Part shown: one piece after another, positions 3,664 through 40,338 of the stretch
How the letters are laid out: the number at the start of each line of letters is the position of its first letter
Position numbering within the stretch: position 1 is the first letter of the stretch
Made by a program: the position numbers and the translations under genes
Notes under the pieces: model-generated
The model's database searches: none
What the model saw: only the letters and a program-made list of their open reading frames with translations
Told to the model about the DNA's origin: nothing
Assembly: GCA_030834905.1 (NCBI GenBank)
Contig: JAUQWZ010000004.1
Span: 1-64,000 of the forward strand
Length of the DNA stretch: 64,000 nt
From: Aggregatilineales bacterium
Lineage (GTDB): Bacteria > Chloroflexota > Anaerolineae > Aggregatilineales > Phototrophicaceae
Direction of reading: 5' to 3'

Positions 3664-6600
3664 CTAAATATACTCTCCTGGACGCCGCAGTACCCGGAAT
3701 GGATTTAGCAGCTTGATCTCGTTATTTGGTTTCCAGTTCTTTGCTTCATCAACAGAAGCCAATACATCTGGGTGATTGCCCGTCCAAAGCGGATGGACTT
3801 CAATCAGGGTGCGCGCTTGGTGCTGAGTATTCTTTGTATATCCCCATAGGTTCCCAAATTGCTGTCTATCGGTATACCCGAGCTTGCGAAGGACAGGTGG
3901 AATGGTCACTTCAACCAATCGCCTCCACGGATTAGGCTGTTTTCCCCAATCGCTCGTTAAATCAACTGCCATACGACCAGCCGCCAGAAGCGCCATATCA
4001 AGTGCCAAACGCCAATCAAGCAAGGAGTGATAACTCATATTGCCGTAGTCGCGCAGGCACAGGTTGCAGGACACATCGCAAGCATCTTGATGCGCGATCC
4101 ACTTCTCAGCAATGCTTTCCTGAGTGTCAGGATCGGCATGTTTAAGCAGGTCAATGAAGTTCTCCGATGTACCTAAATGACGGCAATAGCCCGCACCATT
4201 TTCGAGTTGATCGCATAAGAATGCTTCTCCCGCGGGACGAGCTTGATCGTAATGTGTGCGGAAGCCTGCCTGAAGTTCATTGGTATCGACATCAAGTGTT
4301 ATACAAGCTACCGTTCGCAACCAGAAAGCGAATGAGTACCACGCAGCCCGTCCTTCAACCGTTTGAGGATCAGCGTAGATACCTTCAGGAAACTGATTGA
4401 TGCCCACCAACAGAATATCGGTGGGACGCTTGGAGAGAAGAGCAATTCGCCACACCTCATTTTCCCTAACCTGCACAACTTCATCAGTCTCTGGTCGGAT
4501 AGAGTATGCACCATCGTTGAAGGTTGCTCTCGGTCTGGAATCTGAGCGTACACCGGCTACTCTGGCCGAGTAAAATTCAAATCCACTTTTGCCGCCATTG
4601 TCATTCAGGGTCACTATCTTGTCGTTGAAGGATGCAATACGTGTGTTCGCCACGAATTGGGGAGTAGGTCTTGCATCGAAGTAAATCGAAGGGCGGGTCG
4701 AACGTGGTGCCCACTCGAACTGTCCTTCGAAATCCTTTGGTGATTGGTCGGTAAAGAAACCGCGAGGTTCTCGGGCATCAATCGAACGCAAGGAAATGTT
4801 GTGGCATACTCTGCATTCCTGAAGCGGTTCTTGTCCGCGGAACGGTTCATTTGATGTCCCCAGATCTACCACGGCATTGCAAGCCTCACATATTCCAATA
4901 ATTTGCGGATTGCCATGTCCCAGATCGGGAGTAAATCCCGAAGCCACCTGTACCCGATTCCCAGCAGCATAAAGTTCAACAACGCCGCAAGCGGTATGCA
5001 CGGCTTTATCTTTCACTGTTTCGGACCCAGGCGCAAATTGGGTGATCGCAATGTCTAGATCCCGGTCTACCGTTCCATTTTCCGGTGGCCAGGAGCGAGC
5101 CTCAAAAGGCCAAGATGTATATAGTAACCTTACCCGCGTTGGGAAACCGAACATGGGTAAGAGACCTGCGTTTGCCAGTCGTTCGCTGAGCGCAGCTTGG
5201 ACATAAGAGTCATCTGCTGCGATTTCGGAAATCTTGGGTACAAGTTCCATCTGTACGTAGCGTAGATACTTCTCAACAAACGCCGGGTATTCTGATTCAG
5301 CGCGCCATGCAGTACGAACACTTAAGGCTTCGATCACGCCCACGAGCGCGGCTGTGTTTAAAGGATCTGTGAGCCAATTGGTAACGACACCTTCATAGTT
5401 ACTCCAATCGGTCGCTTTGCCGAATTCTCCGTGGACATTCTCTTTGCCATCCTCAGCTTCAATGATTTGCTTCGCCAATCCGGTATGTTTGTAGGCGAGG
5501 CGAAGGACTTCTTTACATAGAACTCGCTTAAATATAGCTTCGGCTTCCTTGGTCACATCGATGTATGGCGACGGAGGCGCATCTCCCGTAATGTTTTCAG
5601 GACGCTGGAAATAGAAATCGTCATGGGTACGACCCCGGCAAAACGTCACGGCAAGTGAGATGCCAGTACCGCGTCGTCCCGCACGTCCCACGCGTTGTTG
5701 GTAATTGAACCGGCGTGGGGGCATGTTGGAGAGCATCACTGCCAATAGGGAACCAATATCTACCCCAGCTTCCATCGTTGTTGTTACGCTGAGTAGGTCA
5801 ACCGCCTGAACCAGCCTGTTTTCGCCTTCATTCACCATGTCTTGGAACCAGCGTTGACGGCGCACTCGTTCGCGGCGGTCTGTCTGTCCAGTCAGTTCCT
5901 CACAGTTAAGTCGGAATGGGTCGCCAGATTCTGCTGAAAGATACGTGTAATAATCAAAATCCGAAGACTGCGTATCTTCTTCAAGAGGGATAAGACAATC
6001 CGGGCAAACCCCCGTAGCGCGGTGAAGATAAAACGCGCGACAAGTTGGGCATCTCCATCCCCGGATCGATTCATTCGAATTGGTAAGAGGCAAGATAAAC
6101 AACCGATTAGGACTGAGAACAATACCAGGTTGGGAGGGTTCTGCAGCTCCCGAGGTGAGAAGTTGATTGCGAACATCCGTGGAGTCAAGGCCAATGTGAT
6201 TAAGGTATGCTTCTACTAATCTCGGAAAGCTCTCATCAGTGCCCGGTGCGTAGAAGAAAGCCTGCGTGTGGCGTCTTCGGATCCCAAGCACACGGATAAT
6301 CACGTCAGTAGCTTGTGCAAGCGTTGCAGAGATTGAACTTGTTGGCGGACGATAAGTGACTTGACCCTGTCCTAACCCTTCAATTGTTCGCGCTTTGTGA
6401 GGAAACAGCGCATACATAAGTTCACCGCGAAGCGTCATATTGATGAGACGAACATGTTGGTCGCGACTTGTGTCACTCGGTTCAGTGATCGGTTGAATTG
6501 TGCCTTCTAATCCCCATTCGTAAGCCGAATACCAAGGCTTCAGTTGTCCGCTGTCAGTCTCATAGTTTAAGAGGCTAATTGTGACGCCACCGGGGTTTAT

Positions 6601-9423
6601 TCCCAATCCAAGCAAGTGCGACCCAACAGCTTTACCCAAACGGTCGAGTGACATTCGACCGGGATACTCTGACAATAACGCCAACCAAGCTTCCCGGTTA
6701 CTCCTGTTTGCTGGAGACGCACCCATCCACCACAAAAGTGCCTCGGTCGTCAAGTCATCATGCCGCGCCATAAATCGATTGCGCCGAACTATATCCTCCG
6801 TTCTGCGCGCTGCCTCAACTTGAGCAGCTAATGTGGGGTTAGTCGCTTGAAGTTCGCGCGGCACGGTTCCACCAGACATTGCCTTCTGTTCACGCAAAAA
6901 TGCAACTAAATCCCTCCAATATTCATCGATGACACGAATAAGCGCCATGCGAACCAAGTCTCTATAGTGATCACGCTGCATCCCAGCGGCGAGCTTTGCT
7001 GCGTCTTGTCTGCTATCAGAGAAGATGACCAACTTGCGAGATGAGCGTGCGTCGGGCTTTTCTGGTTTTGGCATCTCGCGCAGAAGTCCAGCCGCAATTA
7101 CCTGCGAAGATTTCTGAAATCCTGTGCGATGGTTACGCAGTGGGGTGGGGTTGTTATCGCGACGGGAGAAATCTGCATCGCAGCAGGGACAGCGTGTAGG
7201 AAAGGCAGGTTCATTGGCCCCTTCGTCTGCGACTACATAAAGTCTACCTAAGATTTCGCTTGGTGTAGGCGGCTTGCGATCATTCGCCTTGCGAACCAAA
7301 ACACCTGTGGTTGTATCGAGTTTGGCTTCCACCCAACGACGACGTTTGCGTTTGTGTGACCAGTCCGTAGTTTGTGGGATGGTCTCGGAAGGCCAAAACA
7401 GCGCGTATTGTCCATGATTGCGATCAAGTGAAACCCGATCCGGGATTCCTTCTAGGTTAGGCTGGTCCGCTGTAATTACTTCCGCGCCTGCTGACAATAT
7501 TCGCCGGTAGCCTCCCAAAAATACATCGCCGCAAACTTCGCAGACGATTAAATCAAGAACACGTGAGCCGCAAGAGTCGCATGTCAGACGGTGTGAGGCA
7601 AACAATGCACCAACCGGTGGTTTGGGATCACTCCGATCCGCACAGCTTGGGGATGTGCAGTTGGGGTTGCTGCACACCCATAAGTTTTGAAGGTTATGGT
7701 AAAAGAGGTGTCCACGTAGGGGTTGCGGAGAGGTCTTATCTGCTTGCTGCGCTAAACCCACAGCAAGTAGGAAACCACGGAGGGCAGGTGAGACAATATT
7801 CTCTGTGACATCGCTGGGAAGTTTAGTACCAAAGATCTCCTCATCGATCCTGGTGACCTGTGTCGGTCGAACCGTTTTATTTGTCGCTAGGGTTATAGCC
7901 GCATCTCGCAATACGTCTGAGGCAGAAATCGTTCCGTCTATCGACGTACCCAAATTCGTGAGTGCGTCGGCAAGCTTCTGCTCGTCCGGCTTGTTTTCGC
8001 CCCCCGAATAGCCAAGCTGTAAAGCTAAATCCTTCATTGCTTGACGAACTTCGGTGGAATTCTCCGCAGCCGGATGCATTGGCTCGACCGGGTTTTGCTG
8101 CACCGCATTCGCAAATGCCTCAAAGGAGGAACGGTGAGTTTCCAGAACAAACCTTGCGTTTTTCTTTGGTGCAACTTCTGGCGTGTTGATGAATGGGGCA
8201 AAATTGTCGCGTCCGAAAAACTCTTCCAGAAACTGGTGTCCGACAGAGGTATCGCTTAGACTCGCGGACGTTGTCAAAATTCGAAGCTGGCGCGATTCGG
8301 AATGGAGTCCCAAGCGACTGAGCAGCAATCGAAGAATGTAGGCGACTTCCGTTCCGGGCGTCCCCCGGTAAGCATGGAGCTCATCAATGATGAGGTGGAA
8401 GACCCGTTCTGGTCGATCAGATTCACGGGTGGGATCGGATGCCAACCAATCCCGTGTCTTATCAAAGATCGAGTCTTCAACAGTACGCATCATCATAATA
8501 TTCAGCATGGAATAGTTCGTAATGAGAATGTCTGGTGGAGTTTCCTGAATATCCCAGCGTGACCACATTTCGCCACTGTCAGGATCGGCAGAGTACCAGC
8601 GTCTATCTTGGAGGACTTCATCCTCCGGGTTGGCTTCGACTGCTTGCCTTATTGGATCGAATTCCTCCGACATTTCGCGCAATTCATCACGCAGGTGGTC
8701 AAGTTTGTCTTTTTTTTGCTGACCGGGAACAGGAGTAAGTGAGGTGTAGCGTCCAAAGGTGATCCGGTTACCACCTCGATTTCGATCCATCCAGGTAGTG
8801 ACGCGCTCTGAAGTCAGAGCGCGTCTTAAGCGGCGAAGTTGATCTTCAACAAGGGCATTGAGCGGATAGAGAATTAATGCGCGCAACGCCATGGGGCGTT
8901 GAACATGCCCCCATTGAGAAACGCGCGTCGTGCCCTTCTTCCACCAGTGACGATCTTTCGGTGGATTAGGACAGTTATCCCATCTTGCGGATTCTGCTGC
9001 AAGTTGAGCGAGTAAAGGGAGTAAAAAGGTTTCGGTTTTGCCTGATCCTGTACCCGTTGTGACAACGATATCCTTGCCGTTAATTAGGGTTTCCTGCATT
9101 GCACGCCACTGATGTTCGTATAAGGAACGCGACGACATGAGTTCTGCGGCGAGATGCTGTACGTCAGCATAGCTGTCTGGCAACTTGACTCTCACAAGTT
9201 CCTCTCCGGCATCGCGCAAGAACATATCTTTGCCGGAGTGTGTCTGTGCCTTGGGATATACAGGAACGGTTTCTAGTAACGGTGGTTGGCTTAGGATACC
9301 GATTTGTCTCAGCAAAGTGTCACGTTCTTGTGAAAGTGCTTCGCTACGTAATGGAAACGCACTTTTTATGTACATCCGATAAATGCGTTCAAGCCGGAGG
9401 TAGGAACCAATGAGATCATACAT
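3664..9423 (-). CDS. Very large SF2 DEAD/DEAH-box helicase with Zn-finger cysteines and DUF1998-like C-terminus (DruE/DrmA/MrfA superfamily)
   Basis: 1919 aa; motif I VVTTGTGSGKTE, motif II LIIDELHAYRG, motif VI QQRVGRAGRRGTG, cysteine clusters CSNPNC/CDSCG/CEVCGD, C-terminal DACDVSCNLCLRDYGN typical of DUF1998. Confidence 0.85.
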   Translation of the reverse strand: MYDLIGSYLRLERIYRMYIKSAFPLRSEALSQERDTLLRQIGILSQPPLLETVPVYPKAQTHSGKDMFLRDAGEELVRVKLPDSYADVQHLAAELMSSRSLYEHQWRAMQETLINGKDIVVTTGTGSGKTETFLLPLLAQLAAESARWDNCPNPPKDRHWWKKGTTRVSQWGHVQRPMALRALILYPLNALVEDQLRRLRRALTSERVTTWMDRNRGGNRITFGRYTSLTPVPGQQKKDKLDHLRDELREMSEEFDPIRQAVEANPEDEVLQDRRWYSADPDSGEMWSRWDIQETPPDILITNYSMLNIMMMRTVEDSIFDKTRDWLASDPTRESDRPERVFHLIIDELHAYRGTPGTEVAYILRLLLSRLGLHSESRQLRILTTSASLSDTSVGHQFLEEFFGRDNFAPFINTPEVAPKKNARFVLETHRSSFEAFANAVQQNPVEPMHPAAENSTEVRQAMKDLALQLGYSGGENKPDEQKLADALTNLGTSIDGTISASDVLRDAAITLATNKTVRPTQVTRIDEEIFGTKLPSDVTENIVSPALRGFLLAVGLAQQADKTSPQPLRGHLFYHNLQNLWVCSNPNCTSPSCADRSDPKPPVGALFASHRLTCDSCGSRVLDLIVCEVCGDVFLGGYRRILSAGAEVITADQPNLEGIPDRVSLDRNHGQYALFWPSETIPQTTDWSHKRKRRRWVEAKLDTTTGVLVRKANDRKPPTPSEILGRLYVVADEGANEPAFPTRCPCCDADFSRRDNNPTPLRNHRTGFQKSSQVIAAGLLREMPKPEKPDARSSRKLVIFSDSRQDAAKLAAGMQRDHYRDLVRMALIRVIDEYWRDLVAFLREQKAMSGGTVPRELQATNPTLAAQVEAARRTEDIVRRNRFMARHDDLTTEALLWWMGASPANRSNREAWLALLSEYPGRMSLDRLGKAVGSHLLGLGINPGGVTISLLNYETDSGQLKPWYSAYEWGLEGTIQPITEPSDTSRDQHVRLINMTLRGELMYALFPHKARTIEGLGQGQVTYRPPTSSISATLAQATDVIIRVLGIRRRHTQAFFYAPGTDESFPRLVEAYLNHIGLDSTDVRNQLLTSGAAEPSQPGIVLSPNRLFILPLTNSNESIRGWRCPTCRAFYLHRATGVCPDCLIPLEEDTQSSDFDYYTYLSAESGDPFRLNCEELTGQTDRRERVRRQRWFQDMVNEGENRLVQAVDLLSVTTTMEAGVDIGSLLAVMLSNMPPRRFNYQQRVGRAGRRGTGISLAVTFCRGRTHDDFYFQRPENITGDAPPSPYIDVTKEAEAIFKRVLCKEVLRLAYKHTGLAKQIIEAEDGKENVHGEFGKATDWSNYEGVVTNWLTDPLNTAALVGVIEALSVRTAWRAESEYPAFVEKYLRYVQMELVPKISEIAADDSYVQAALSERLANAGLLPMFGFPTRVRLLYTSWPFEARSWPPENGTVDRDLDIAITQFAPGSETVKDKAVHTACGVVELYAAGNRVQVASGFTPDLGHGNPQIIGICEACNAVVDLGTSNEPFRGQEPLQECRVCHNISLRSIDAREPRGFFTDQSPKDFEGQFEWAPRSTRPSIYFDARPTPQFVANTRIASFNDKIVTLNDNGGKSGFEFYSARVAGVRSDSRPRATFNDGAYSIRPETDEVVQVRENEVWRIALLSKRPTDILLVGINQFPEGIYADPQTVEGRAAWYSFAFWLRTVACITLDVDTNELQAGFRTHYDQARPAGEAFLCDQLENGAGYCRHLGTSENFIDLLKHADPDTQESIAEKWIAHQDACDVSCNLCLRDYGNMSYHSLLDWRLALDMALLAAGRMAVDLTSDWGKQPNPWRRLVEVTIPPVLRKLGYTDRQQFGNLWGYTKNTQHQARTLIEVHPLWTGNHPDVLASVDEAKNWKPNNEIKLLNPFRVLRRPGEYI

Positions 9424-9425
9424 AT

Positions 9426-10754
9426 CTAGCGGCCTTTGATAAGTTGCGCGTAAAGTTTTGTGCGGATAGTTTCTGCGAGGGGTGGATTAATGGTCTCATA
9501 GACGAGTCCACCGGGTACTACCGATGGCAGCTTTCCAGCAGCTAGTACAAGGGTGCGTTCATAAAGGTCTGGTAGGTGATATCGCTTAGGCACAAATAGC
9601 TGCTCCAAGGTGGGTTCATAGGTAAGTTCAGCCTGAATCCCAAGATGATAATTTGCCAGAAAACGCAATCCGTACCAATCCCCTTGAAGCCATTGATTAC
9701 GCTCCGGTGCGAAATAATAATAGTAATATAGCTCTTGGTCCCTTTTCTCCAAGCTCTTGAGTCGGTACATTCCCTCGCCCAAAGGTTCAGCAACGGAAGC
9801 TACGAAATCTTCGCCGTTCCATTTCTCTAGCCAGTAGCGGTCACTAGCGACACCGATAGGGCTTAGTATATCCCTATACCAACCATTCAACTCAGGTAAA
9901 ACATCGGCAAGTTTCGTGCCTGCCGGTCCAGCGTCTCGGAAGTGAGTGTACATTTCACGTAGCACGGTCAAAAGCTCCTGGACATCTGTATCGGAATTGA
10001 ACTTGAGGAAAACCGATTCAGGTCCACCATGGTTGCTTTCAACTTCCACTTTGACATTGCCGAAATCTTGAATTTCTCTTATCAATACAGGTACTTGTGC
10101 GCCGGACAAAAAATATCGCGAACCTTGGCGTTCGGAGACTTTTACCAAGCATGGAGGGCAGATAGTCCAATGTGACCCACTATTCAGGTATTCGACATGA
10201 CCGAGTAAGCGAAAGCGTCGAAATATATGACGTGCCTCTGTATTGGTACTGAGGCGCAAGGACCTACAAGCCTCTCGGAATGTCTGCCATGTTCCTTTAC
10301 CAACTGCGGACATCCAATACAGCAGATAATTGTTGGACTCTTGTGCTGTATCGTTTAGTTCAGATGCTATGGCAAAGTCAAAGGGATTATCTGGGTGGAC
10401 TATTTCGGGCGGACGATATCCAATTCGACGAGCGTATTTGATTGACTCGAGATCAACCTCACGACTTGTCATCGATTTGATCTGATCATAGGTAAAGGGT
10501 TGTTCTTCTATGGGTCTTGCAATATTTTGCAACTCGGGCCGGTGTAGAACATCGTATGGGATGTCATCATCGTCGCATTCAATGTTGAGAAAGAAGTAGA
10601 ATTCGCGTATTCCACGCTGCACAGTGGTTTTCTCACAGTACATGCTTGGGATTCGCTCACGCAAATTGTTTTGCTCAACAAATTGTGCAATGCGTAGTTT
10701 AATCGTATCGGGTGAGCTACGAACACGAAATGCCCAATATCTTTTTTCATCCAT
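9426..10754 (-). CDS. protein of unknown family in the helicase operon
   Basis: ~443 aa from MDEKRYWAFRVR; stop 3 nt from the start of the 1919-aa helicase gene. Confidence 0.75.
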   Translation of the reverse strand: MDEKRYWAFRVRSSPDTIKLRIAQFVEQNNLRERIPSMYCEKTTVQRGIREFYFFLNIECDDDDIPYDVLHRPELQNIARPIEEQPFTYDQIKSMTSREVDLESIKYARRIGYRPPEIVHPDNPFDFAIASELNDTAQESNNYLLYWMSAVGKGTWQTFREACRSLRLSTNTEARHIFRRFRLLGHVEYLNSGSHWTICPPCLVKVSERQGSRYFLSGAQVPVLIREIQDFGNVKVEVESNHGGPESVFLKFNSDTDVQELLTVLREMYTHFRDAGPAGTKLADVLPELNGWYRDILSPIGVASDRYWLEKWNGEDFVASVAEPLGEGMYRLKSLEKRDQELYYYYYFAPERNQWLQGDWYGLRFLANYHLGIQAELTYEPTLEQLFVPKRYHLPDLYERTLVLAAGKLPSVVPGGLVYETINPPLAETIRTKLYAQLIKGR

Positions 10755-10758
10755 ATAG

Positions 10759-12450
10759 CTAGTTACCCGTATCGATGAATGCGCCAAAGACAGCACTGCC
10801 AGCAATTTTTAAGCCAACATGATCAGCGACTGAACTTAGCCGCACATTCGACCAATCAGCTATGCGAACAAAGCGCTCATATTGTTGGCCTTCTGCTTGC
10901 ACACGGAGCAAGTAATCACCCGATTGAGACCATTCAATTGGCAGACTATCGCCGGATTTTGATAAATCCAAGTTGATAATTGCAGCGTTGGTACTCAAAT
11001 CACTGAGCGTTACGTTGAACCGCTTTGCAAATGCGTGTACGATGACTTCTGGTCCATAGCCGACCAACCACGCTCCCGATTTTATGTCTCGTAATCCACC
11101 GCGCAACGCGATACCTATATGGCTCCTTGGCCGAAGCTGATTCACTAACTCTTTATGTTCGACCCTGACCTCCGACCACACATCGCTGAGGACCATCACA
11201 CTTGTATACTCGATCCAACCGTCAAGTTCGGTTTCTTGGTTCCAGCCGATCAAGGACTCACTCCGAAGACGCTCGACATCATTTCTAAGATTTGGACTGC
11301 ATAACAACACGAAGGGTACACCCAATTCAGGACGATCTGTCCAAGAGGCGTATACACCAGATGCAACATCATCGGGATCGGGTGGGAGAATCCAAAATTC
11401 TGACGGGCTGAGTACGAGACTTTTGATACGCTCTATTCCCTGAACGGGTAAGGTCAAACCGTGTTTTATATCGGAAAATGATAAGGGGAGTGATAAAAAC
11501 GGCTCAAACCAACCCGCGCGACTCGTAACTAAGGGCGAAGACTCGTTTTGATAGAGAACAGACGCTTCATTCGCTTGAATGTGGCGCGGTTGGCGGGGTA
11601 GCAAATAAAAGTTAGTCCCAGTCAGGTAGTGTTCAGTACGGTATAATCCTGTACGTAGGGTCGAGGATGCCGCAATTTGATGGGCTTTGGATCGGTCTAT
11701 GGGCCTGCCGCTGTCTACCCAAATATCAAACGTCTCATAGAGGGCATCGGACAAATCATCGTAGCGCGTAGCGCCTATCTTGCCCTCTGTGTCGAGTAAA
11801 TCTCGAAGGTGTTTAGGGAAGCGGGTGGTTGTGAGCTTGGCATCAGCACGCACCTGTGCGGTAAGCTCACCTTTTCCAAATCGTCCTGAATATTTGTCAT
11901 TGTTTAGACCAAAATGTCGCCAGAGACGAGTTTTGTCAAGTCCCCGTAAAAGTGCCTGTGATCGGGCGTATGTGTAGTACTGTTCCCCAGTTTTTGTAGC
12001 AGTCGGCTGAAAGCCATTGTAACGAAGCCAAAGCGCCCAATCCTCCCACAACTCCTGCTCAGCTCCACCTTTTAATCCAGCAGATCGACCGTCAACTTGA
12101 AGTCCTAAGATGTTATTGAAATGGGTAAAATAAGCTAGTGGGCTATGTGTTTCCTCATTTTCTCCCATGCGATGTGCAGCAAGTACCATCGCACATAGAA
12201 ATGCAAAATACCGTGGCGGCGTATCGTAATCCTTGTGTCCAGCGGCAAATATCCGATCTAGGTCGACAGCACTGTTACTCAAGCAACGCAAGCGTATGAC
12301 TTCGAGAAAGTCGTCTGCTGAGGTTCTTAGCTCATCAGCGACCCATGCGATTGCCTCGTCGTCGATGGCAAGATAGATACGGATGCCTTTGGGCATCCCA
12401 ACCAACGTGTAGTCAAATAGGGCTTGGTTCCATTCCTCGTACGTTGCCAT
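10759..12450 (-). CDS. protein of unknown family in the helicase operon
   Basis: ~563 aa from MATYEEWNQALFDY; 4-nt spacing to the downstream gene. Confidence 0.75.
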   Translation of the reverse strand: MATYEEWNQALFDYTLVGMPKGIRIYLAIDDEAIAWVADELRTSADDFLEVIRLRCLSNSAVDLDRIFAAGHKDYDTPPRYFAFLCAMVLAAHRMGENEETHSPLAYFTHFNNILGLQVDGRSAGLKGGAEQELWEDWALWLRYNGFQPTATKTGEQYYTYARSQALLRGLDKTRLWRHFGLNNDKYSGRFGKGELTAQVRADAKLTTTRFPKHLRDLLDTEGKIGATRYDDLSDALYETFDIWVDSGRPIDRSKAHQIAASSTLRTGLYRTEHYLTGTNFYLLPRQPRHIQANEASVLYQNESSPLVTSRAGWFEPFLSLPLSFSDIKHGLTLPVQGIERIKSLVLSPSEFWILPPDPDDVASGVYASWTDRPELGVPFVLLCSPNLRNDVERLRSESLIGWNQETELDGWIEYTSVMVLSDVWSEVRVEHKELVNQLRPRSHIGIALRGGLRDIKSGAWLVGYGPEVIVHAFAKRFNVTLSDLSTNAAIINLDLSKSGDSLPIEWSQSGDYLLRVQAEGQQYERFVRIADWSNVRLSSVADHVGLKIAGSAVFGAFIDTGN

Positions 12451-12454
12451 ATTG

Positions 12455-14560: not shown

Positions 14561-14569
14561 TGTTATAAT
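14561..14569 (+). promoter_or_regulatory. putative extended -10 promoter (TGtTATAAT) for the + strand operon
   Basis: TGTTATAAT in the divergent intergenic region, upstream of the GNAT start. Confidence 0.5.
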
Positions 14570-14632
14570 CTGGGCAGCAGACCGCCCAAACCCAGAGTGA
14601 CCTCCGTGCCACAAAAAGCAAGTTCAACATTT

Positions 14633-15061
14633 ATGAGAGCAACCATTAAGCAAGTGCCTGCAATGAAAGCCATCGCGGATGCAAATCGCGATGAGATTGG
14701 GTTCGTTAACCAAGCAAAGCTTACACAAGCGGTTTTTGAAGAACGAATTATCGTGGCGATTCTTCGTAAGAAGGTGATTGGCTTTGTTGTCTTTCGCCAT
14801 CGTAAAACTGATACTCAAACTACCCTCTCTGAAATATGCCTCGATCAGGCTTTACGCGGTCAAGGGTATGGGCGTGAATTGATTAACGCCCTTTGTCGTG
14901 ATTGCATCAAGCACGGCCATTCGTATATCAAGCTGAAATGCCCGGTTGACTTACCGGCGAACACATTTTATGAGTGCTTAGGATTCCAAAAGATCGGAAC
15001 TGAAATGGGTAAGGTGCGGAAGCTTAATATCTGGGAACTGTCGGTTGTTGAAACCAGGTGA
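14633..15061 (+). CDS. GNAT-family N-acetyltransferase-like protein (a GTG start at 14606 is possible)
   Basis: LDQALRGQGYGRELINALCRDCIKHGHSYIKLKCPVDLPANTFYECLGFQKIG: GNAT motif A (RGQGYG) and terminal FYECLGF. Confidence 0.75.
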   Translation: MRATIKQVPAMKAIADANRDEIGFVNQAKLTQAVFEERIIVAILRKKVIGFVVFRHRKTDTQTTLSEICLDQALRGQGYGRELINALCRDCIKHGHSYIKLKCPVDLPANTFYECLGFQKIGTEMGKVRKLNIWELSVVETR

Positions 15062-15064
15062 CCC

Positions 15065-16102: not shown

Positions 16103-16916
16103 CACAAGTGGATTTCACGTCCGACATGACCTTCTCCCTTCTCATACGTATGAGATCATTATATTGCTGCGTACAATAAACGGGAGTGGAACTCTTGAGG
16201 AAATCCAGCAGGTTGCTGAACAGCACGGCTTTACTGTTCGCAATCGCAAAGATTGGAGCAAACCTCTACGATCGCTAATGGAGCTTGGAATTGTTCATTC
16301 GGATAAAAAGCGCCCCGTATTGACAGAAATTGGCAGAGTTGTTGCCCATCTTACAGCCTTTCAGCCGGATTTGCTCCCCGATTTTATCCATTTCTTGTAT
16401 TACACCTGCTACGATAGCGACCTAGAAAAGCGGTTTTCGTGGAGCTACCGCTTGATCTGTGATTCGCTGTGGAATAGTGCACCATGTGTCGTAAACCGAG
16501 ATAAGCTTGTTAATTTGGTAACAGCGCAGGCATTGGCAGCCTTCCAAGTTAACGGTATTTCATTCAGTGTAAATAGCGTTTATGGTGTTCTGAACTGGTT
16601 AAATGCCCTTGAACCAAGGTGTATTGTGCCCCAATTAGACGAGCAGAAATTCCTGCGCCGCGCTTATTGCTCTGTCGAGTTGTTTATGCTGTCTCTCTAC
16701 CATGTATTCCGCTTTCACCAGGACGCTGATACTCCATTTGTGCCTATAACACCAAATTTCCGAAAAAAGGTCTGTCAAATATGTTTGCTAGTACCAGAGT
16801 TTTTTTCGGAAATGCTCGATCAGGCAGACGCAAACTTCGACTGTTTGCAGGTTAGGCATGAACGAGGAGACCGCATTGCCATCAAAGATTTTTCCTGGTC
16901 AGTTCTAGAAAGCTGA
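16092..16916 (+). CDS. small partner protein of ATPase cassette 1 (unknown family)
   Basis: GFHVRHDLLPSHTYEI...WSYRLICDSLWN...SVNSVYGVLNWLNAL; clearly related to the protein at 20394-21200; ATG overlaps the dpdA-like stop. Confidence 0.75.
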   Translation: MMTNTSGFHVRHDLLPSHTYEIIILLRTINGSGTLEEIQQVAEQHGFTVRNRKDWSKPLRSLMELGIVHSDKKRPVLTEIGRVVAHLTAFQPDLLPDFIHFLYYTCYDSDLEKRFSWSYRLICDSLWNSAPCVVNRDKLVNLVTAQALAAFQVNGISFSVNSVYGVLNWLNALEPRCIVPQLDEQKFLRRAYCSVELFMLSLYHVFRFHQDADTPFVPITPNFRKKVCQICLLVPEFFSEMLDQADANFDCLQVRHERGDRIAIKDFSWSVLES

Positions 16917-16923
16917 AGATTCT

Positions 16924-19900
16924 ATGTCCCAAGTCATTGACAGGCTCGCAACAATCGCGGCAAAAGGTCCAGTGGTTGCCACACATGTTGGCATTTTCAA
17001 CGACACGAACACTCAACAAACATACGAGCGTTACAACCGCGAAGCACAAACCTATGTACGACCACCAGAGATAGCTACCTTTCAGCAACAGATGCTGGAC
17101 AAAATCCTTGGAAAGAACACCGCAATTGGATGCATGGTTGCTCCATTTGGCTACGGCAAGACAAGCGCAGCGATCGATACTTGGAAATTGTGCGAAACCA
17201 AAGGTATTCTGGCAATTCCGCCATTTAGTTGCAGTTCGATAGCCGAATTGGGCCGCGCAATGGCTACAGGGGTCATCGAACAATTGGATGTTGGCGACAC
17301 AGCGAAAATACGTGAGGCCTACGACGCGCTAATTGTTTCCTCTGCGCGTCGTTTAGCCGAACAAGATGTTAAACAATACAAGATCGATTTAGAAACGGCA
17401 CTACACAGCATTGAAGATAAAATTGAGCGTGGTTACCTTCAGATTGAAGCGATGAGTAACCATCTGCTCATCTTTATCGAGCAACTCACTCAAATTGTTC
17501 TCGATGCAGGTTATAACGGATTGCTGGTCATTGTCGATGAATTCCAGCAGTTTTTGGGGAATATCAATAAAGCAACAATTACAAATTTTAGGACGCTGGT
17601 CTGGGGGCTACGTACCCGTGGAGAAGTCCCTTTCGGTATATTGATCACAATGGATCCAGATACGGAACGAAACCTTAACGAGCGTGCTGGCGACATTATG
17701 CATCGGATCAAAGAAGATAGCCTCTATCTTGACTTTACTGATGCATATGATCGGGAATTTCCCCGCCTACTGTGGGCACGCTATGCAGAAACTCTGGGCT
17801 TTACCGACGAAAGCCAGCAAGTCGTGGATTACGCGACGCTTGATGCCATTGGGCAAATTGGCGAACGACATGACTTGAGCAACGGTCCTAGAACGGTTAT
17901 CGACATATTTCAGCGCATCGCAAATCTCTATACGGTCAAACGGCAGCCATATTTGCCTATCGATATGATCGATGATTTTATGACAGGCGCGATTCGGTTC
18001 GATGGAGACCAGAGCAAGATCGCCTCGCTAGTGACCGAGCTAACCAGCTATGACTATATTAAGCGCGTGCCGAAACGATTCCAAGCGCTAAAGCTTATCT
18101 CAGCTTTTCCGCGCGGTTGCCCCCGTGAAGTTGCAGAACGGTATGAATTGGGAGATGCCTACGATGAACTGGCGGATCTGCTGCGTGGGGAAGTCTTGAC
18201 TGAACTCCCAGAGGGCATGGCGCTCATCGACCTACAACGCGTCGGCAAACCCCAGAACAAGCTAAACATTATCCTCAAGAAGTACTGGTTGCAGATTACT
18301 GAAGATGAAATCATCGCGGATAGAGCGGTGCCACTATTCGCCAAGTATGCGATCGCGCCACTGTTTCCAGCAGCACATAACCCTATTTCTGGATGGTCGC
18401 CAGAAGACCCTGAATTCCAGCTTACCGCCAACGGAAGTTATGCGCAGACTTATGAAGGTACCTTTTTCGAAGAATATCCAAAACGACGAGTTCATTTTCA
18501 AGTATGCCGCACACTTGATCAGGTTACGCCCCCCGATAATTTTGCTGATGTTCACTTTGTATTCTTGTTGCAACGCGCAAGTGATATCCCTCTAGCTGCA
18601 CAGTACGAACGTGAATCAAGAACATTCATCCTGAGCATATTGATAAATCATCCCTTTGAACTGCCGATGCCACGTGACGTACGATGGATCGAAGAATACC
18701 TTCGCCCGGTAGTGATGTCTCCAGGTGTATTGCTAAGTTTGCTAGACTATATTGAGAACCAAGCGCCGAAAATTGAAGGGATTACGGCAAGCGAACTCGC
18801 TCGAATTGAGTCCCACCAGCAGAAATTGACGATGTTTTTATCTACAGCGATTTTTGGCGAAAACCTATTTAAAGGGTTAGGACTGGACGTTATCGCGCGT
18901 GGCGAACAGGCCATTCGCGAAGTTCTTTTCGGAGTATTTCATTCTGCTTACCCACAATATCACACCCTTGTCACGTCTCCCCAATGGGACGCACACTTAA
19001 AATCCTATGCGAAGGCACTAAGTTCGGTGAATGCATTGCATAGCCGTGGGATGGAGACACTTACCGATAGCAAATCTGCCATTGCATCGTTATTTGGCTT
19101 ACGCAACCATGCCGGGTTCGAGAGCCAATCCAAGCAATACGGTGAACTTCTAATCGTAGAAAAATGGACAGGTGATTCGGGCACCATACGATTCCAGCGA
19201 CATCCCGGGGAAACGTTGATCCATAACGCGATAACTCTCGGAAATAATTTGGAAATTGAAATGCTTATCCAGATTGCCCGAAAGGACGGCTATCTACCCG
19301 AAGAAGTTTATCGTCTCGCTGAATTCTTGATGCTGAGAGGATTTATTCAGTACGATGAAACGCAAGAGGCATACGTCCCTGCGCATACACTTTCGATTCC
19401 TGAATTGCAACAGCTTACGTATGAAATAAATGAAGAAGCTGAAATGCTGAGTTCGGTAGTAGATTCCCCAGCATTTGATCGAGCCTTTGAACAAGTGTCA
19501 ATGGCGAATGCCAGTTTAGAGGCTGGTGAGTTGATTGAAGTACAAGTACTTCTGCTTCAAGCCCAAAACATGATTCAGCAAGAACGTCCCAAGGTAGCAA
19601 AGAATCTCACTAATCAGCTCTTAGAGTTGCGTTCTGCAATCCATCGGCAAATTGACACACTAAAAAAGCCTTTGCCTATCTCAAATGCAGGAACTGCTCT
19701 TGACACCCATATCAATGGGGTTGGAAGAGCGCTCACCGGTCGGCGGGAATCCTATGCAGAGGCTCTGAATAGATTTTCCTCAGTTGTAACAGAAGCGCTA
19801 AATCAGCCTACATTATCCGAGGACGTACGTTCAATACGAGAGATGATTAGTTTGTCATCCAATATTCATTCTGAATATGAAGCCTTAACGAAGGAAGTCA

Positions 19901-20391
19901 ACGACATTCTAAGTTTGAGTGATCTCCATTCGGATTGGGTGAAGCTTGTTGAACAATTACAGCAAATTGCGAAATATAACGAAGTGCTGACTTCGTTTAC
20001 CGACATAACTGGATTTGAACGTGAGCAAAAAGCGATAACTCAGGAACTTATGGAGGGACTCTCCGTCGATGGCGCACGACGTTACCACGCTCTCTTTGCC
20101 GAAAATGCGCCACGGGTTTCTACCCTACTAGATGAAGTCAGCACAGCGATAAAGGCTCAACATCTTGCGACAGCCAAACCAGCAAAACCTGATGAGGTCA
20201 AGCAAACGATTCGTCCTGAAAAACGGATTTGCAAATCCGAATCTGTCATTGGACTACTACAACGGAAGCCGATTTCATTCGCCCAATTGGTAAACGCAGT
20301 TGAATTAGCACCGGATGACCTGCAAGAACTTCTGCTCGACCTCGAAAAACAAGGCGAAATCAAGATTGCAATAACTAAAGGCGGCAAATAG
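16924..20391 (+). CDS. large P-loop ATPase, BrxC/PglY-like (DUF6079-like), cassette 1
   Basis: Walker A VAPFGYGKTS, Walker B GLLVIVDEFQQFL, LSNGPRTVIDIFQRI; 1155 aa. Confidence 0.75.
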   Translation: MSQVIDRLATIAAKGPVVATHVGIFNDTNTQQTYERYNREAQTYVRPPEIATFQQQMLDKILGKNTAIGCMVAPFGYGKTSAAIDTWKLCETKGILAIPPFSCSSIAELGRAMATGVIEQLDVGDTAKIREAYDALIVSSARRLAEQDVKQYKIDLETALHSIEDKIERGYLQIEAMSNHLLIFIEQLTQIVLDAGYNGLLVIVDEFQQFLGNINKATITNFRTLVWGLRTRGEVPFGILITMDPDTERNLNERAGDIMHRIKEDSLYLDFTDAYDREFPRLLWARYAETLGFTDESQQVVDYATLDAIGQIGERHDLSNGPRTVIDIFQRIANLYTVKRQPYLPIDMIDDFMTGAIRFDGDQSKIASLVTELTSYDYIKRVPKRFQALKLISAFPRGCPREVAERYELGDAYDELADLLRGEVLTELPEGMALIDLQRVGKPQNKLNIILKKYWLQITEDEIIADRAVPLFAKYAIAPLFPAAHNPISGWSPEDPEFQLTANGSYAQTYEGTFFEEYPKRRVHFQVCRTLDQVTPPDNFADVHFVFLLQRASDIPLAAQYERESRTFILSILINHPFELPMPRDVRWIEEYLRPVVMSPGVLLSLLDYIENQAPKIEGITASELARIESHQQKLTMFLSTAIFGENLFKGLGLDVIARGEQAIREVLFGVFHSAYPQYHTLVTSPQWDAHLKSYAKALSSVNALHSRGMETLTDSKSAIASLFGLRNHAGFESQSKQYGELLIVEKWTGDSGTIRFQRHPGETLIHNAITLGNNLEIEMLIQIARKDGYLPEEVYRLAEFLMLRGFIQYDETQEAYVPAHTLSIPELQQLTYEINEEAEMLSSVVDSPAFDRAFEQVSMANASLEAGELIEVQVLLLQAQNMIQQERPKVAKNLTNQLLELRSAIHRQIDTLKKPLPISNAGTALDTHINGVGRALTGRRESYAEALNRFSSVVTEALNQPTLSEDVRSIREMISLSSNIHSEYEALTKEVNDILSLSDLHSDWVKLVEQLQQIAKYNEVLTSFTDITGFEREQKAITQELMEGLSVDGARRYHALFAENAPRVSTLLDEVSTAIKAQHLATAKPAKPDEVKQTIRPEKRICKSESVIGLLQRKPISFAQLVNAVELAPDDLQELLLDLEKQGEIKIAITKGGK

Positions 20392-20393
20392 CT

Positions 20394-21200
20394 GTGAGTG
20401 AGCTGAATTTTCATGTTCGACACGAGGTTACACCTGAGCGAACTTGGGATGTTTTGACTGCCATTATAGAAGAGTATTCCTTTGATCATATTGTTCAGGC
20501 AGATCGTCAGATAGCCAGACTTCGTCAACTGGGACTTATTCAGAAAGACAAAACGCTACCGTCTGCACTAGGAAAAGAACTTCACCGCATTGGCACCCGC
20601 AAGCGCGAAGTGGCGATGGATGTGTTCCATTATCTTCACTACAGTCTATGGGATGAAGTCCGCCGTCTTGAAAATACGCTTTCATGGAGTTATCGTGCAC
20701 ACTGCAATACGCTGTTTGCAGCCAAAGAATTTGTGTTGGATAAAGCTAGGCTAGAGCATTTAACGGCAGAGCTTAACAATAAAATCATCGAGTATTTTGG
20801 CAGTGACATATCCAAAACCAAAAAAGGTTCTGTTGCACTCAGCATAAACAGTATAAAGGGTATCCATCATTGGTTGGCGGTATTGACACCACCTGTATTC
20901 GAAGATGATGGTGAACACTTCGTGTGTCGCAACTCCTGTTCCCCTGAGATGCTGTTGCTGGGTTTAGGACATATGTCACGAACCATTGGTGCCGATCTCG
21001 ATATCGATTTGTTGTTGACCCCTGAAAATCGCGAACTTGCCTGTCGCGCCTGTTTATTGACCCCTGAGATGTTGGATCGTGAACTCGATTGGATGCTTTC
21101 TTTATATCCTTCCATTATTCAGCCAGGCACACGTACCGGCGGGTATGGTCGTTTTATACGTTTCTTGAAATTTCCTACATTGAGTGATTTGTTGCAATGA
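20394..21200 (+). CDS. small partner protein of ATPase cassette 2 (unknown family)
   Basis: LNFHVRHEVTPERTWDVL...LSWSYRAHCNTLF...SINSIKGIHHWLAVLTPP; paralogous to 16092-16916; GTG start. Confidence 0.75.
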   Translation: MSELNFHVRHEVTPERTWDVLTAIIEEYSFDHIVQADRQIARLRQLGLIQKDKTLPSALGKELHRIGTRKREVAMDVFHYLHYSLWDEVRRLENTLSWSYRAHCNTLFAAKEFVLDKARLEHLTAELNNKIIEYFGSDISKTKKGSVALSINSIKGIHHWLAVLTPPVFEDDGEHFVCRNSCSPEMLLLGLGHMSRTIGADLDIDLLLTPENRELACRACLLTPEMLDRELDWMLSLYPSIIQPGTRTGGYGRFIRFLKFPTLSDLLQ

Positions 21201-21210
21201 GGTGAGGCGC

Positions 21211-24200
21211 ATGAGCGTTGACGGACTAAACGCCATTCTCAACAAGGAAGAAGTCATTGTCACTCGACATGCGCATGATTTTATCGAGCGCCCGAAGGCC
21301 GTAGACGATATTTACCGAATGCACCTGCGTACTTATGTGCCAATGCACAGCGGCGCAAACCGGGATCAGCAAACGGTAGAAGGTTTTACAAAGAAATTCA
21401 TTGGACATGTTACAGAACGACGTGTGCCGCGCGGCTATATCACCGCCGACTTTGGCTACGGCAAGACGAGTACCGGACTGTTTTTATGGGGACAAGCCGA
21501 AGATGCTGGACAGCTTGTAGTCCCGCCTTTCCAATTAAGCACATTGTCAGATTTTTTAACGGCAACTGCTGGCTGGGTACATTATCGCTTGGGACAGACC
21601 ATACCTAGCTTACAAGAGCGTGCAGCGGAAATTTATCGAGAAGCGGTAGCTCAAAGCGTGGAAGATGTTGCTGCAAAATATGATATGACGATTGAAGCGG
21701 CACAGCGGCTCATCGAAGACAAGCCCCAGGTTCAGGAACTCAGCACAGCGGACCTTGTCAGATTCTTTAACGCCGTCACGGAGTTAAGCTTGGAAGCAGG
21801 CTTCAACGGTCTATTGGTCATTGCTGATGAAGTACAGCAATATCTAGAGCCGCAGATCAAAGCTGGTAAGGGCGATCCGATTGGCCCACTGTTTGATTTG
21901 ATTGCTGACCTAGGCGGATTGCTAGTCCCATTTGGTTTACTGCTTATTATCCCGCAAAAGGAAATCGGTGTCATCAACGATCAACGTGGCGACCTTATTG
22001 ATAGGATGCGCAACTATGTTCTAGATTTGAAGACCATTTATGATGAAGGCTTTCCGGCACGCTTATGGCAGCATCTTGGAAAAGCATTTGACTTCGTTGA
22101 AGATGCGCCCCATATCATGCGCGATGAAACCCTGCTTAGCCTTGCACAAATTGCGCTTCGCCCTGATCTTGCCAACGGGCCACGAACCGTCATTAATGCG
22201 TTTCGGCGAGCGGTTAAGCTCTATATTGATGGTGGTATGGTTTCTAATCTGCCTTACACTCCACTTACGCTAGTCGATGACTTCATCAGTGGAGACATAG
22301 CATTTGACGGCGAGAAACGCATCCAGACTGTGGTAACCCGTGCGCTGGAACATCCATTTGTCAAAGAACGGCCTGAATTCAAGGAGGCGGTGAAGTTTGC
22401 AGGCGCATTTCCCACATATGGAGCTACGGCAGACTTGCAGCAGAATTTTGGTTTGCAAGAAGCTTTCACAGAATTACGTGACAGGGTTTACGGGCAGGTT
22501 GTGCGGCATGTTGGAGATCCTGCTGATCCAGGCATAACGTTGGTTGGATTGGAGCAAGCTCAAGTAGAGCAGAATTGGCTTAATGCCGAAATACTTGAAT
22601 TCAGTCGTACTTTCTACGAGAACGCGGCCAATGTGAAAATGCGGACGCTGCGCGGCTTTCAGGCTCTTCTGAAAAACATTGTTTTCAAGGGAGGATGGCA
22701 AGCGAAGGAAAGCTACGATGTAGGCGCAGGTTACTCTGCCGGAATCTCTTTTGAAGGTGCATTCGCCAGCTTTAAACGCGAATTTCCATCTCGTCTGCTT
22801 CATGCTTATATAGTATTCGATGATGAACGTGGTCAGCCAGTCGAAGGCGAATTCGATGTACTCTTGGAATTCCGACTTTGTCGCTATTTAGATTTTGATG
22901 AAGCGGCTCGACAAAACAAAGTGACATCGCCCTCGACCGATAGCACACTCAATAGTGCATATTTGACTTTGAATCTTGCAAGGCGTGTAATCGGTGGCAT
23001 GAATCGCGCTGTTGAGCCACTGTTGACCAAGGTTGTTGCGCCTGAGCGTCTAACCCCTTTATTCCTGCTGGCAATGCATGGTTATTTCGAGAGCAGACTT
23101 GATTTAGGGCGCGTCGATAAGGCGGAGCAACCATTTTTGACGGGCAACTTTATGCCAGCCTTGCTTGATAGCGCAGCACTAATGCTTCTGGATAAGTCGG
23201 TAGCGGGTGTACTCGACGCGGCAGGAGCCAAACTAATTGAGATATTGGTATTTAGTATTCTCCAGGCGCGTTACGGTACTGAGTATCGTACTTTGATGGC
23301 AATTGCGACTTGGCGTGATTCGATGCGCACCTATGCCAATATAGTGAAGCGTCTGGAGTCCCCTATGCAGAAGCAGGGCATACTCCCTGTTGAGGGCAGC
23401 CGAGATCAAACCATGAAGCTGATTAACCTTACAGCAACAGCTTTTGACACGCTCGCCAGCAATTTTCCTGATTTGATTGAAATCGTAGCTGATTTCAAGA
23501 AGGCAAGAAATGGTTCGGTGCGCTTCAGACTACACCCCTTGGAGTCTTTGATTCTGGACTGGCTGTCCGCATCATCCAACGTCATCACAGCAAACCAGCA
23601 AGTGCTGCATCGTCTGAGTGAGGGTGAGATTTTAACCCAAGCAAAGCTACGAGGATATAAAGCTGCGGAGGCGGAGCAAATCATCACTCTATTGAGCGAA
23701 CGTGAGCTAATCTACCATGACAAGCATGGCTTTGTAGTAGAGCGCCAGCCCATTACCGTCACTGTCGAGGAAGTGGCAGCTCAGATCGAACTTCTCAATG
23801 CCCGAGTGAACCTCGTCCAGCAGACCTTCCCTGAGGAAACGGGAATTAGTTCGGTAATTGAAAATGCCGTCGCGTTGAATCAATTGATTAAACAGATTGA
23901 GAGTCAACGCAAGCAACCTGATCCGAAAACCTTGGCGTTAATGGAAAATAGAGCGCGAAATAATCTGAAATTGCTAGACGATATTCTTCATAGTCGGCTA
24001 GAGAGTGTCAAGTCTCAGACTGACCGCATTATTAAGCGTTATAATACGTTGAAGGTGCCAAATATTGAAAATCTGTCTGTTGTTGAAACCGATGCACCCT
24101 ATTTTGATAACTTAAAACAGGCAAGCTCTATACTTTTGGAGGCTTGCCTACAATCGACATCTACCGTCCATGGAAATCAAGCTCGAGTCGAGGAAGTAGC

Positions 24201-25182
24201 ACAACAGCTTGTCAGTGGAAACTATTCCCAAGATACACTTCCTGAAATTGTAAGCGAGGTGCGGACGTCAGAGGATTGGTTCGATCAGCTTTCTGCAAAT
24301 ATGGCATCGCTCTCAACATTGGTTGCAGCTTACTCATCTTGGGCGCGAATTGCATCTGAACGCAAAACCTTGCTTGAGAAAATCGCACAACTTGGACGTG
24401 ATGGGGATGATGTATCGACCGGACTTGAGCGGCTTGACAGCGAAATGCTCGCAATTCTCACCCAAGATTGGCAGGAGGGATTACTCCAAGGCAATACTTA
24501 TGAACGCCGCTTCAAATCGCTTAGCGATTCGGTTGATAACATTGAAAAGCAAGCCAACAGAAAATTCCAGCGATTACAGGAAGGCTTTCTAAATCTATTA
24601 CGTTCCGCACAATGTCCTGAAAATGATCTCTGGTCGCCTATCATTTTCAGTCAAGCGGATATCCAAGGTGTTCATGAGCAACTTTACAATTATGCGAGTC
24701 GCGCAGCAATCGCAACTGTAGACCATGCGGAGGATGCGATCCAACGACTATGCAGTGAGCTGCGGCAAAAGCTGGCATCTCCAGATCGGGAGCATGTAGC
24801 AGAACAAGCCCATAAATTACTCAGTGAACTAGCGGAACTGACCACCCGTTTGCCATATCCGACAGCAAACGACCCGAAAACCGTTCGCGATTTTGATGGG
24901 CAACTCTCAGGAGCATTCTTTTGGCTTATTTCCCAAGTTAAAAGCGCGTGGACGGAGATTCAGATTTACCAAAAGCGCGTGGCCGAGATTAATGAACCAA
25001 CTGAGGAGTTACCGCTTTCTCTTATAGAGAATGACTTCTTGGCCCAGTTAAAAAATGGCTCATTTACCGACCTTGCGACGATTTGGGAATATCTTCCGTA
25101 TGAACCGGAGCAAATATGGCTCACGGTGCGGGAGTTGTGGGAAAAAGGACTAATCCATATCGCGATCCGCAATAGCAGATAA
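21211..25182 (+). CDS. large P-loop ATPase, BrxC/PglY-like, cassette 2
   Basis: Walker A ADFGYGKTSTG, Walker B GLLVIADEVQQYL, LANGPRTVINAFRRA; ~1323 aa from ATG 21211 with RBS GAGGTGAGG. Confidence 0.75.
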   Translation: MSVDGLNAILNKEEVIVTRHAHDFIERPKAVDDIYRMHLRTYVPMHSGANRDQQTVEGFTKKFIGHVTERRVPRGYITADFGYGKTSTGLFLWGQAEDAGQLVVPPFQLSTLSDFLTATAGWVHYRLGQTIPSLQERAAEIYREAVAQSVEDVAAKYDMTIEAAQRLIEDKPQVQELSTADLVRFFNAVTELSLEAGFNGLLVIADEVQQYLEPQIKAGKGDPIGPLFDLIADLGGLLVPFGLLLIIPQKEIGVINDQRGDLIDRMRNYVLDLKTIYDEGFPARLWQHLGKAFDFVEDAPHIMRDETLLSLAQIALRPDLANGPRTVINAFRRAVKLYIDGGMVSNLPYTPLTLVDDFISGDIAFDGEKRIQTVVTRALEHPFVKERPEFKEAVKFAGAFPTYGATADLQQNFGLQEAFTELRDRVYGQVVRHVGDPADPGITLVGLEQAQVEQNWLNAEILEFSRTFYENAANVKMRTLRGFQALLKNIVFKGGWQAKESYDVGAGYSAGISFEGAFASFKREFPSRLLHAYIVFDDERGQPVEGEFDVLLEFRLCRYLDFDEAARQNKVTSPSTDSTLNSAYLTLNLARRVIGGMNRAVEPLLTKVVAPERLTPLFLLAMHGYFESRLDLGRVDKAEQPFLTGNFMPALLDSAALMLLDKSVAGVLDAAGAKLIEILVFSILQARYGTEYRTLMAIATWRDSMRTYANIVKRLESPMQKQGILPVEGSRDQTMKLINLTATAFDTLASNFPDLIEIVADFKKARNGSVRFRLHPLESLILDWLSASSNVITANQQVLHRLSEGEILTQAKLRGYKAAEAEQIITLLSERELIYHDKHGFVVERQPITVTVEEVAAQIELLNARVNLVQQTFPEETGISSVIENAVALNQLIKQIESQRKQPDPKTLALMENRARNNLKLLDDILHSRLESVKSQTDRIIKRYNTLKVPNIENLSVVETDAPYFDNLKQASSILLEACLQSTSTVHGNQARVEEVAQQLVSGNYSQDTLPEIVSEVRTSEDWFDQLSANMASLSTLVAAYSSWARIASERKTLLEKIAQLGRDGDDVSTGLERLDSEMLAILTQDWQEGLLQGNTYERRFKSLSDSVDNIEKQANRKFQRLQEGFLNLLRSAQCPENDLWSPIIFSQADIQGVHEQLYNYASRAAIATVDHAEDAIQRLCSELRQKLASPDREHVAEQAHKLLSELAELTTRLPYPTANDPKTVRDFDGQLSGAFFWLISQVKSAWTEIQIYQKRVAEINEPTEELPLSLIENDFLAQLKNGSFTDLATIWEYLPYEPEQIWLTVRELWEKGLIHIAIRNSR

Positions 25183-40260: not shown

Positions 40261-40338
40261 CCGACATACACACAGGGGAATGGAGCGCCTTCCGTCGCCA
40301 AACGTTGCGCTGCAAACCCCTGTGTGATATCCGAAGGA

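Follow-up and report, generated by a model that had tools for sequence, protein, structure and literature searches.

Druantia type IV is defined as DruF, DruL and DruE without DruM and DruG (PADLOC 2021, PMC8565338). The definition contains no modification enzyme and so gives no account of how the host DNA is spared. The BRC (BREX-Related Capture) system, with its core of GNAT, TGT, DUF4007 and BrxC proteins, was described in January 2026 in Nucleic Acids Research, and HerA/FtsK is universal in BRC systems (PMC12839542). In the Ssp systems the SspBCD marking set, of which SspB is a nickase required for modification, pairs with SspE or SspFGH; SspE is stimulated by phosphorothioate (PT), and SspFGH damages unmarked DNA (PMC8092258). 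Here we describe a ten-gene island at positions 3664–25182 of a 64,000-nucleotide stretch (the window; positions 1 to 64,000 of contig JAUQWZ010000004.1) from an Aggregatilineales bacterium of the Chloroflexota, in which a GNAT-TGT core stands together with Druantia genes. We consider it reasonably probable that the ten genes form a single mobile system, similar to restriction-modification, in which TGT, with GNAT, sets a 7-deazaguanine self mark and Druantia attacks unmarked DNA.

A sequence-only reading of this DNA had proposed ten genes in two divergent operons, and all ten open reading frames were confirmed, uninterrupted and at the positions given. The minus-strand operon comprises four genes (3664–14428) and the plus-strand operon six (from 14549 or 14633 to 25182), and the intergenic gaps within each operon are -95 to +7 bp. 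The shared intergenic region of that reading, 14429–14632, stands when the GNAT gene begins at an internal ATG; with the GTG start it shortens to 14429–14548. The features are as follows.

3664–9423, minus strand: DruE, a YprA-family (DUF1998-type) SF2 helicase of 1919 aa (PADLOC DruE4/DruE2, E=0)
9426–10805, minus strand: DruL-like protein of 459 aa (PADLOC DruL4, E=1.6e-20)
10759–12477, minus strand: DruF-like protein of 572 aa (PADLOC DruF2, E=1.3e-15; DruF4, E=2.5e-10)
12455–14428, minus strand: 657-aa fusion of a NERD nuclease (PD-(D/E)XK type) with a UvrD-like SF1 helicase (Pfam NERD 4e-4, UvrD 1.4e-6)
14429–14548 (14429–14632 with the internal ATG of the GNAT gene), no strand: divergent intergenic region
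14549–15061, plus strand: GNAT acetyltransferase (Pfam Acetyltransf_7 7e-12)
15065–16102, plus strand: TGT/DpdA-like base-exchange enzyme of 345 aa (Pfam TGT 2.7e-12)
16008–16916, plus strand: wH1, a putative SspB/DUF4007/BrxA-like multi-winged-helix protein of the Druantia-type lineage (A2/A6 family; winged-helix tree)
16924–20391, plus strand: ATP1, a BrxC/SspC-like ATPase of 1155 aa (motifs GYGKT, DEFQ, NGPR)
20394–21200, plus strand: wH2, a second putative SspB/BrxA-like protein, of the BRC-type lineage (structure model; winged-helix tree)
21184–25182, plus strand: ATP2, a second BrxC-like ATPase of 1332 aa (motifs GYGKT, DEVQ, NGPR), homologous to ATP1 (A3/A7 families)

Relatives were sought with an alignment of TGT relatives (A1) as the query, and this search recovered 43 loci from genome contigs and a further 4 from viral ones. 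Clear homologues of the window TGT were present in 10 of the 98 genomes of its family, and the nearest relatives of the locus are Chloroflexota, mostly Anaerolineae. When the genes of the TGT-core loci were clustered, two architectures appeared. The first, in the order sigma/helix-turn-helix (HTH), TGT, winged-helix protein (wH), STAND, ATPase, PglZ, HerA and GNAT, is the BRC system. The second, to which the window belongs, consists of GNAT/TGT, wH and ATPase with DruF, DruL and DruE, and NERD-UvrD is optional in it. On the TGT tree 20 rows were BRC-type (PglZ/HerA/STAND) and 17 were Dru-type, and none was both; the mutual exclusion of STAND and DruF gave a Fisher p of 7e-6, uncorrected for kinship. 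At least five changes of partner label are required on this tree. Its main Dru clade (support 97/97) holds 12 Dru rows and one contig-truncated row, from Chloroflexota, Poribacteria, Planctomycetota, Acidobacteriota, Pseudomonadota and one viral contig. Cyanobacterial loci (an Oscillatoria plasmid and L059) stand elsewhere on the tree, as do three loci of the Chloroflexota that have a c1093/DruE pair. As a separate observation, BRC-type loci usually open with a gene of sigma-70 regions 2 and 4 plus HTH-like sequence (L054, 7300–9927, and relatives), which is not named among the seven components in the BRC paper (PMC12839542).

In seven loci (L039, L043, L044, L045, L047, L055 and L073) the TGT core and the Dru genes lie on the same strand, and the gaps are mostly below 90 bp or the genes overlap; the exception is the DruL gene of L047, which is nearby on the opposite strand. 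These loci indicate that the two operons of the window belong to one system, and we regard the coupling of the TGT core with Druantia as well supported. A search from the DruF side added two Chloroflexota loci (G317 and G325) in which the TGT core adjoins DruF-L-E. Relatives of DruF are rare (7 of 400 Chloroflexota genomes), and at least 5 of the 22 Chloroflexota TGT loci have this DruF close by, with a binomial p of about 3e-5 against the per-genome background, uncorrected for kinship. The neighbourhood is thus conserved, as the sequence-only reading had asked to be checked: homologues of every one of the ten genes occur together in other genomes with the gene order kept. Against the nearest relative (L030), pN was 0.08–0.24 and pS 0.75–0.84, that is, amino-acid changes are rare and silent sites saturated. 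Because of these values and the same-order homologues elsewhere, the ten reading frames are not chance.

We next consider the genes themselves. The two middle minus-strand genes, which had been called unrecognised, are DruF-like and DruL-like by PADLOC. The proposed DruE-like DUF1998 helicase was borne out: the match to DruE reached 1520 bits and covered residues 2–1917, the Walker A (GTGSGKT), DELH and QRVGRAGR motifs are intact, and, across most of the protein, identity to the DruE of a Druantia IV locus in Deinococcus is 42%. Homologues of DruL adjoin DruE in 12 loci. The DruF-like protein shows clear likeness to DruF2/DruF4 only in the N-terminal third (about 190 aa), and DruF models were matched by all 13 relatives of this protein (best 2.4e-24). 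In L078 (G317; 14075–16459) and L077 (G325; 8085–10910), DruF has an extra N-terminal extension of 230–380 aa with no Pfam match, and both of these loci lack the NERD-UvrD gene.

The predicted nuclease-helicase is the NERD-UvrD fusion. Its ExK residues (E99, K101), Walker A motif and DEAQD are present, these residues are invariant across five relatives, and the gene occurs in six Dru-type loci. In G013 and G005 it is absent, and a RelE/ParE-like protein fused to UvrD follows DruE, suggesting that nuclease-helicases of different types serve a similar function here. A Deinococcus NERD protein was rejected as an orthologue, because its 27% identity covers 145 aa of the helicase core only. In a related locus (L032, 8245–9510) we also observed, inserted between the divergent operons, a gene for a restriction endonuclease of the Mrr type (Pfam Mrr_cat 2.9e-19).

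On the plus strand, the TGT-like assignment made by the sequence-only reading was upheld by Pfam, where the best match is the queuine tRNA-ribosyltransferase domain. Invariant across relatives are D62 (in DSGGY), D99, D226 and an HxCxxC...H zinc site; judging from known TGTs, we take D62 and D226 to be the catalytic aspartates. Among PDB profiles the archaeosine TGT (ArcTGT, 1iq8) was closest and the DNA transglycosylase DpdA (7ui4) almost equal. In many relatives (L043, L047, L073, Oscillatoria) GNAT is an N-terminal fusion to TGT. The reading of the ATPases as BrxC-like also held. That is, the AlphaFold2 model of ATP1 (pLDDT 85) found BrxC of the Acinetobacter BREX system (9zll/9zdx) as its top PDB match (E 5.7e-6, match probability 1.0), and 8 of 29 ATPase-family relatives matched Pfam BrxC_BrxD.

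The true start of wH1 is likely at 16092. The model of wH2 (pLDDT 95.5) had SspB (6lb9) as its best PDB match, with a match probability of 0.93 and a TM of 0.49, and this likeness is weak by E-value (0.084). No member of a set of 44 winged-helix relatives matched Pfam DUF4007, and the Pfam scan of this family was otherwise uninformative. In the winged-helix tree, wH1 groups with Dru-linked relatives, and wH2, together with the winged-helix proteins of L032–L034 and G317, is nested in a clade with Chloroflexota BRC-type proteins (support 99/98). Tandem duplication as the origin of the second wH-ATPase pair is ruled out by this tree. The nesting indicates that the double cassette arose when genes were gained from the BRC lineage, and it points to the second cassette as an added specificity.

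Links to the preQ0 pathway were seen in relatives of the locus. In L047, GNAT-TGT is preceded at a distance of 37 bp by an intact queD, and before queD stand sequences that we recognised by eye in the translation as remnants of queC and queE. In Haloplanus, queD, queE and queC stand beside the BRC-type locus. The window host genome (95.75% complete) has no QueF, and for QueC it gave only a 21-bit partial match, on which ground de novo synthesis of preQ0 in the host was rejected. It has a housekeeping full-length Tgt, QueA and a member of the YhhQ/Vut_1-type preQ transporter family. Other Chloroflexota hosts are likewise without a full QueC, and non-Chloroflexota Dru-type hosts have QueC (E<1e-68). 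Since Tgt, QueA and the transporter are present and QueC and QueF are not, preQ1 salvage is the likely source of the base in the window host. The molecule preQ1 bears a primary amine that is in principle acylatable by a GNAT enzyme, and we speculate that the GNAT of the island acylates it.

Viral carriers of the core were recovered by the alignment query only; the window TGT had no match in INPHARED phage records, and a single-sequence viral scan was also empty. A circular 73.75-kb viral contig with a tape-measure protein, taken as a tailed phage (IMGVR_UViG_3300002920_000014; L074/L075), carries TGT followed by GNAT, and no winged-helix, ATPase or Dru genes lie within 10 kb on either side of them. 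The TGTs nearest to its own are from Chloroflexota loci. The gene content fits a phage that would pass as self by marking its DNA. Two further viral contigs are recorded here as observations. A 32-kb contig classed as viral (IMGVR_UViG_3300045922_000840; L073) holds a GNAT-TGT/wH/ATPase/NERD-UvrD/DruF/DruL operon, which is defence cargo carried by a virus or by a plasmid, unless the contig has been misassigned. On a 100-kb contig (IMGVR_UViG_3300032173_000002; L076), a queD-queE-queC cluster (5375–8095) stands beside a very remote TGT match and is possibly a phage 7-deazaguanine pathway.

From these results the action of the system can be pictured as follows. In marking, TGT with GNAT would replace selected guanines in the DNA of the cell itself with a 7-deazaguanine base, which in the window host would probably be salvaged preQ1, with its free amine open to acylation by GNAT. 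The SspB/BrxA-like winged-helix proteins may locate the site and the BrxC/SspC-like ATPases may drive assembly, by analogy with SspB and SspC in phosphorothioation, and the second wH-ATPase cassette, taken over from a BRC system, would add another specificity. In restriction, DruE with DruF, DruL and NERD-UvrD would translocate on unmarked DNA and destroy it. A phage with TGT-GNAT alone is expected if the core serves self-marking. The picture is also favoured by G362, where DruF-L-E stands behind a type I HsdM/HsdS/HsdR operon (HsdR and HsdS identified by eye, HsdM through a weak Pfam match) with no TGT core, as if it accepted another marking module. A bolder form of this picture, which we hold only tentatively and think rather doubtful, is that the mark is a new DNA base: TGT would insert salvaged preQ1, GNAT would acylate its aminomethyl group, the resulting acyl-preQ1 would be spared by the Druantia type IV arm, the two cassettes would correspond to two recognition sequences, and the TGT-GNAT phages would evade restriction by the same mark.

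Several points weigh against our interpretation that the island is one marking and restriction system. The window TGT matches DpdA models only below cut-off (NCBIfam DpdA: 7e-9, 35 bits, cut-off 200), the SspB likeness of wH2 is weak as stated above, and a DpdB/DpdC-type helper is absent from the ten proteins. No Que genes lie near the window locus and the host is unable to make preQ0, so that the substrate must be salvaged. GNAT is without an assigned substrate, and the amine-bearing base is probably absent in the archaeal relatives. On the restriction side, several Dru-type loci are without NERD-UvrD (L044 ends at DruE), and in the NERD-UvrD gene of L030 (8455–9540) an in-frame internal deletion takes most of the helicase core and leaves the neighbours intact. 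DruF-L-E is also found without TGT on Calothrix and Deinococcus plasmids, so that other partners are possible for it. The evidence is wholly computational, and many relatives are metagenome-assembled genomes.

These points can be weighed together with three other explanations. A BRC-like remnant and a Druantia IV might be independent of each other, as two defence systems that share the island by chance. Defence islands do gather systems, the two sets of the window are on opposite strands, and DruF-L-E and the TGT core are each found without the other. However, seven loci are collinear with short gaps, and coupled loci stand on separate branches of the TGT tree, among them the cyanobacterial plasmids and the c1093/DruE loci. 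BRC effectors and Dru genes are, moreover, never together around the TGT core, unlike what side-by-side accumulation would give. We therefore think that chance sharing is unlikely. It might also be supposed that TGT targets tRNA or phage RNA, in translation control or abortive infection, under regulation by the winged-helix and ATPase proteins. The Pfam match to the queuine tRNA-ribosyltransferase domain and the closeness of 1iq8 would agree with this, but 7ui4 matches nearly as well, the housekeeping Tgt of the host is a separate full-length protein, and the partners are of the DNA type (SspB/BrxA-like, BrxC-like and Druantia). An RNA target thus seems very improbable to us, and DNA would be the substrate.

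The remaining explanation keeps the ten genes as one system and changes the meaning of the mark. That is, the 7-deazaguanine mark would be needed or sensed by the restriction side, for activation and not for protection. The Ssp systems, whose architecture is nearest to that of the marking side, give this some ground, because they include PT-stimulated SspE besides SspFGH, which damages unmarked DNA (PMC8092258). In contrast, a phage carrying TGT-GNAT only is easier to explain by a protective mark, and Druantia sets without TGT exist, which means that the mark is unnecessary for keeping the Dru genes. We regard activation as improbable and prefer a protective self mark.

The setting of the island agrees with mobility. 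Its GC content is 46–51%, versus 56–61% in nearby stretches of the contig. The sequence-only reading had placed the island between ssb and a relaxase module; ssb is indeed on the left flank (3013–3513), and on the right flank we found a type IV secretion system (T4SS) coupling protein (27193–29208), with the relaxase unconfirmed. Farther along the window are a DUF927/PriCT primase-like protein (40324–43284), a protein with an FtsK domain (49779–53411) and a serine recombinase (60087–62288). These three would suit an integrative or conjugative element, and the low GC content and the mobile-element genes of the contig, the coupling protein included, fit an island carried as mobile cargo. The earlier proposal of a cargo defence island linked to nucleobase modification is supported. 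A pattern scan of the region between the operons for a sigma-70 consensus or terminator was empty, and an Rfam scan of window positions 1–32000 gave no match.

The TGT core is one recurrent candidate marking module for Druantia type IV, and the question of how the host DNA is spared becomes testable. The TGT-GNAT-SspB-BrxC core is also shown to be portable, exchanging one entire set of effectors for another (PglZ/HerA/STAND versus Druantia), as SspBCD does with SspE and SspFGH. An unusual DNA base in several phyla, together with a phage counter-strategy, is predicted.

Finally, we compared the island with the named systems. Profile scans of the ten proteins against canonical Dpd, BREX, DISARM and other named systems matched no single system gene-for-gene. 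As the sequence-only reading had noted, PglX, PglZ, BrxL and local QueC/D/E are absent; among the ten proteins there were no matches to the BREX components PglZ, PglX (or PT enzymes) and BrxL. With the BRC system the window shares GNAT, TGT (fused at times) and a BrxC-like (DUF6079) ATPase in a single operon, in which the winged-helix protein is a putative counterpart of the DUF4007/BrxA-like protein of BRC, and its second winged-helix cassette is nested within the BRC lineage. In contrast to BRC, with its HerA/FtsK, PglZ and STAND-NTPase, the window has Druantia genes and two wH-ATPase cassettes. HerA/FtsK is neither among the ten genes nor in the 17 Dru-type loci and is seen in BRC-type relatives; the FtsK protein of the window belongs to its distant mobile-element part. 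PglZ and STAND-NTPase are absent from the window and from every Dru-type locus. A plain BRC system was rejected because HerA, PglZ and STAND are absent. Toward Druantia type IV, the minus strand agrees in gene content with the definition (DruF, DruL, DruE), and none of the ten proteins matched the DruM/DruG models; the differences are that DruF and DruL are divergent and that NERD-UvrD and a full TGT/GNAT/SspB-like/BrxC-like operon are attached.

Dpd resembles the window in having a TGT-family enzyme beside a YprA-family helicase and a 7-deazaguanine mark, which for the window is proposed. It differs in that the window TGT falls outside the DpdA cut-off, the helicase is DruE and not DpdJ (45 bits to the DpdJ model, cut-off 800), and DpdB, DpdC and other Dpd genes are lacking. 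The phosphorothioation systems, SspABCD with SspE or SspFGH and type 4 BREX, likewise join a marking complex of SspB-like protein and BrxC/SspC-like ATPase to swappable restriction modules. Their chemistry is that of the PAPS-reductase-like SspD, whereas the window has TGT/GNAT and a Druantia restriction side. BRIGADE (PMC12458937) also links base hypermodification genes to a helicase of the ARMADA/Druantia branch. It is reported from halophilic archaea only and has a Que cluster, PLD nucleases and two YprA helicases, and a GNAT-TGT-BrxC core is unreported in it (PMC12458937); the island contains no local 7-deazaguanine cluster, PLD nuclease or pair of YprA helicases. A literature search, which left subscription journals and most preprints outside its range, found no work linking Druantia with a transglycosylase or DUF4007. 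The sequence-only reading had called the system previously undescribed or highly divergent. The first of these terms does not hold for the parts, since both Druantia type IV (PMC8565338) and the BRC core (PMC12839542) are known, but it does hold for their union: as far as the literature searched extends, the fusion of a GNAT-TGT core with Druantia in place of PglZ, HerA and STAND is new.

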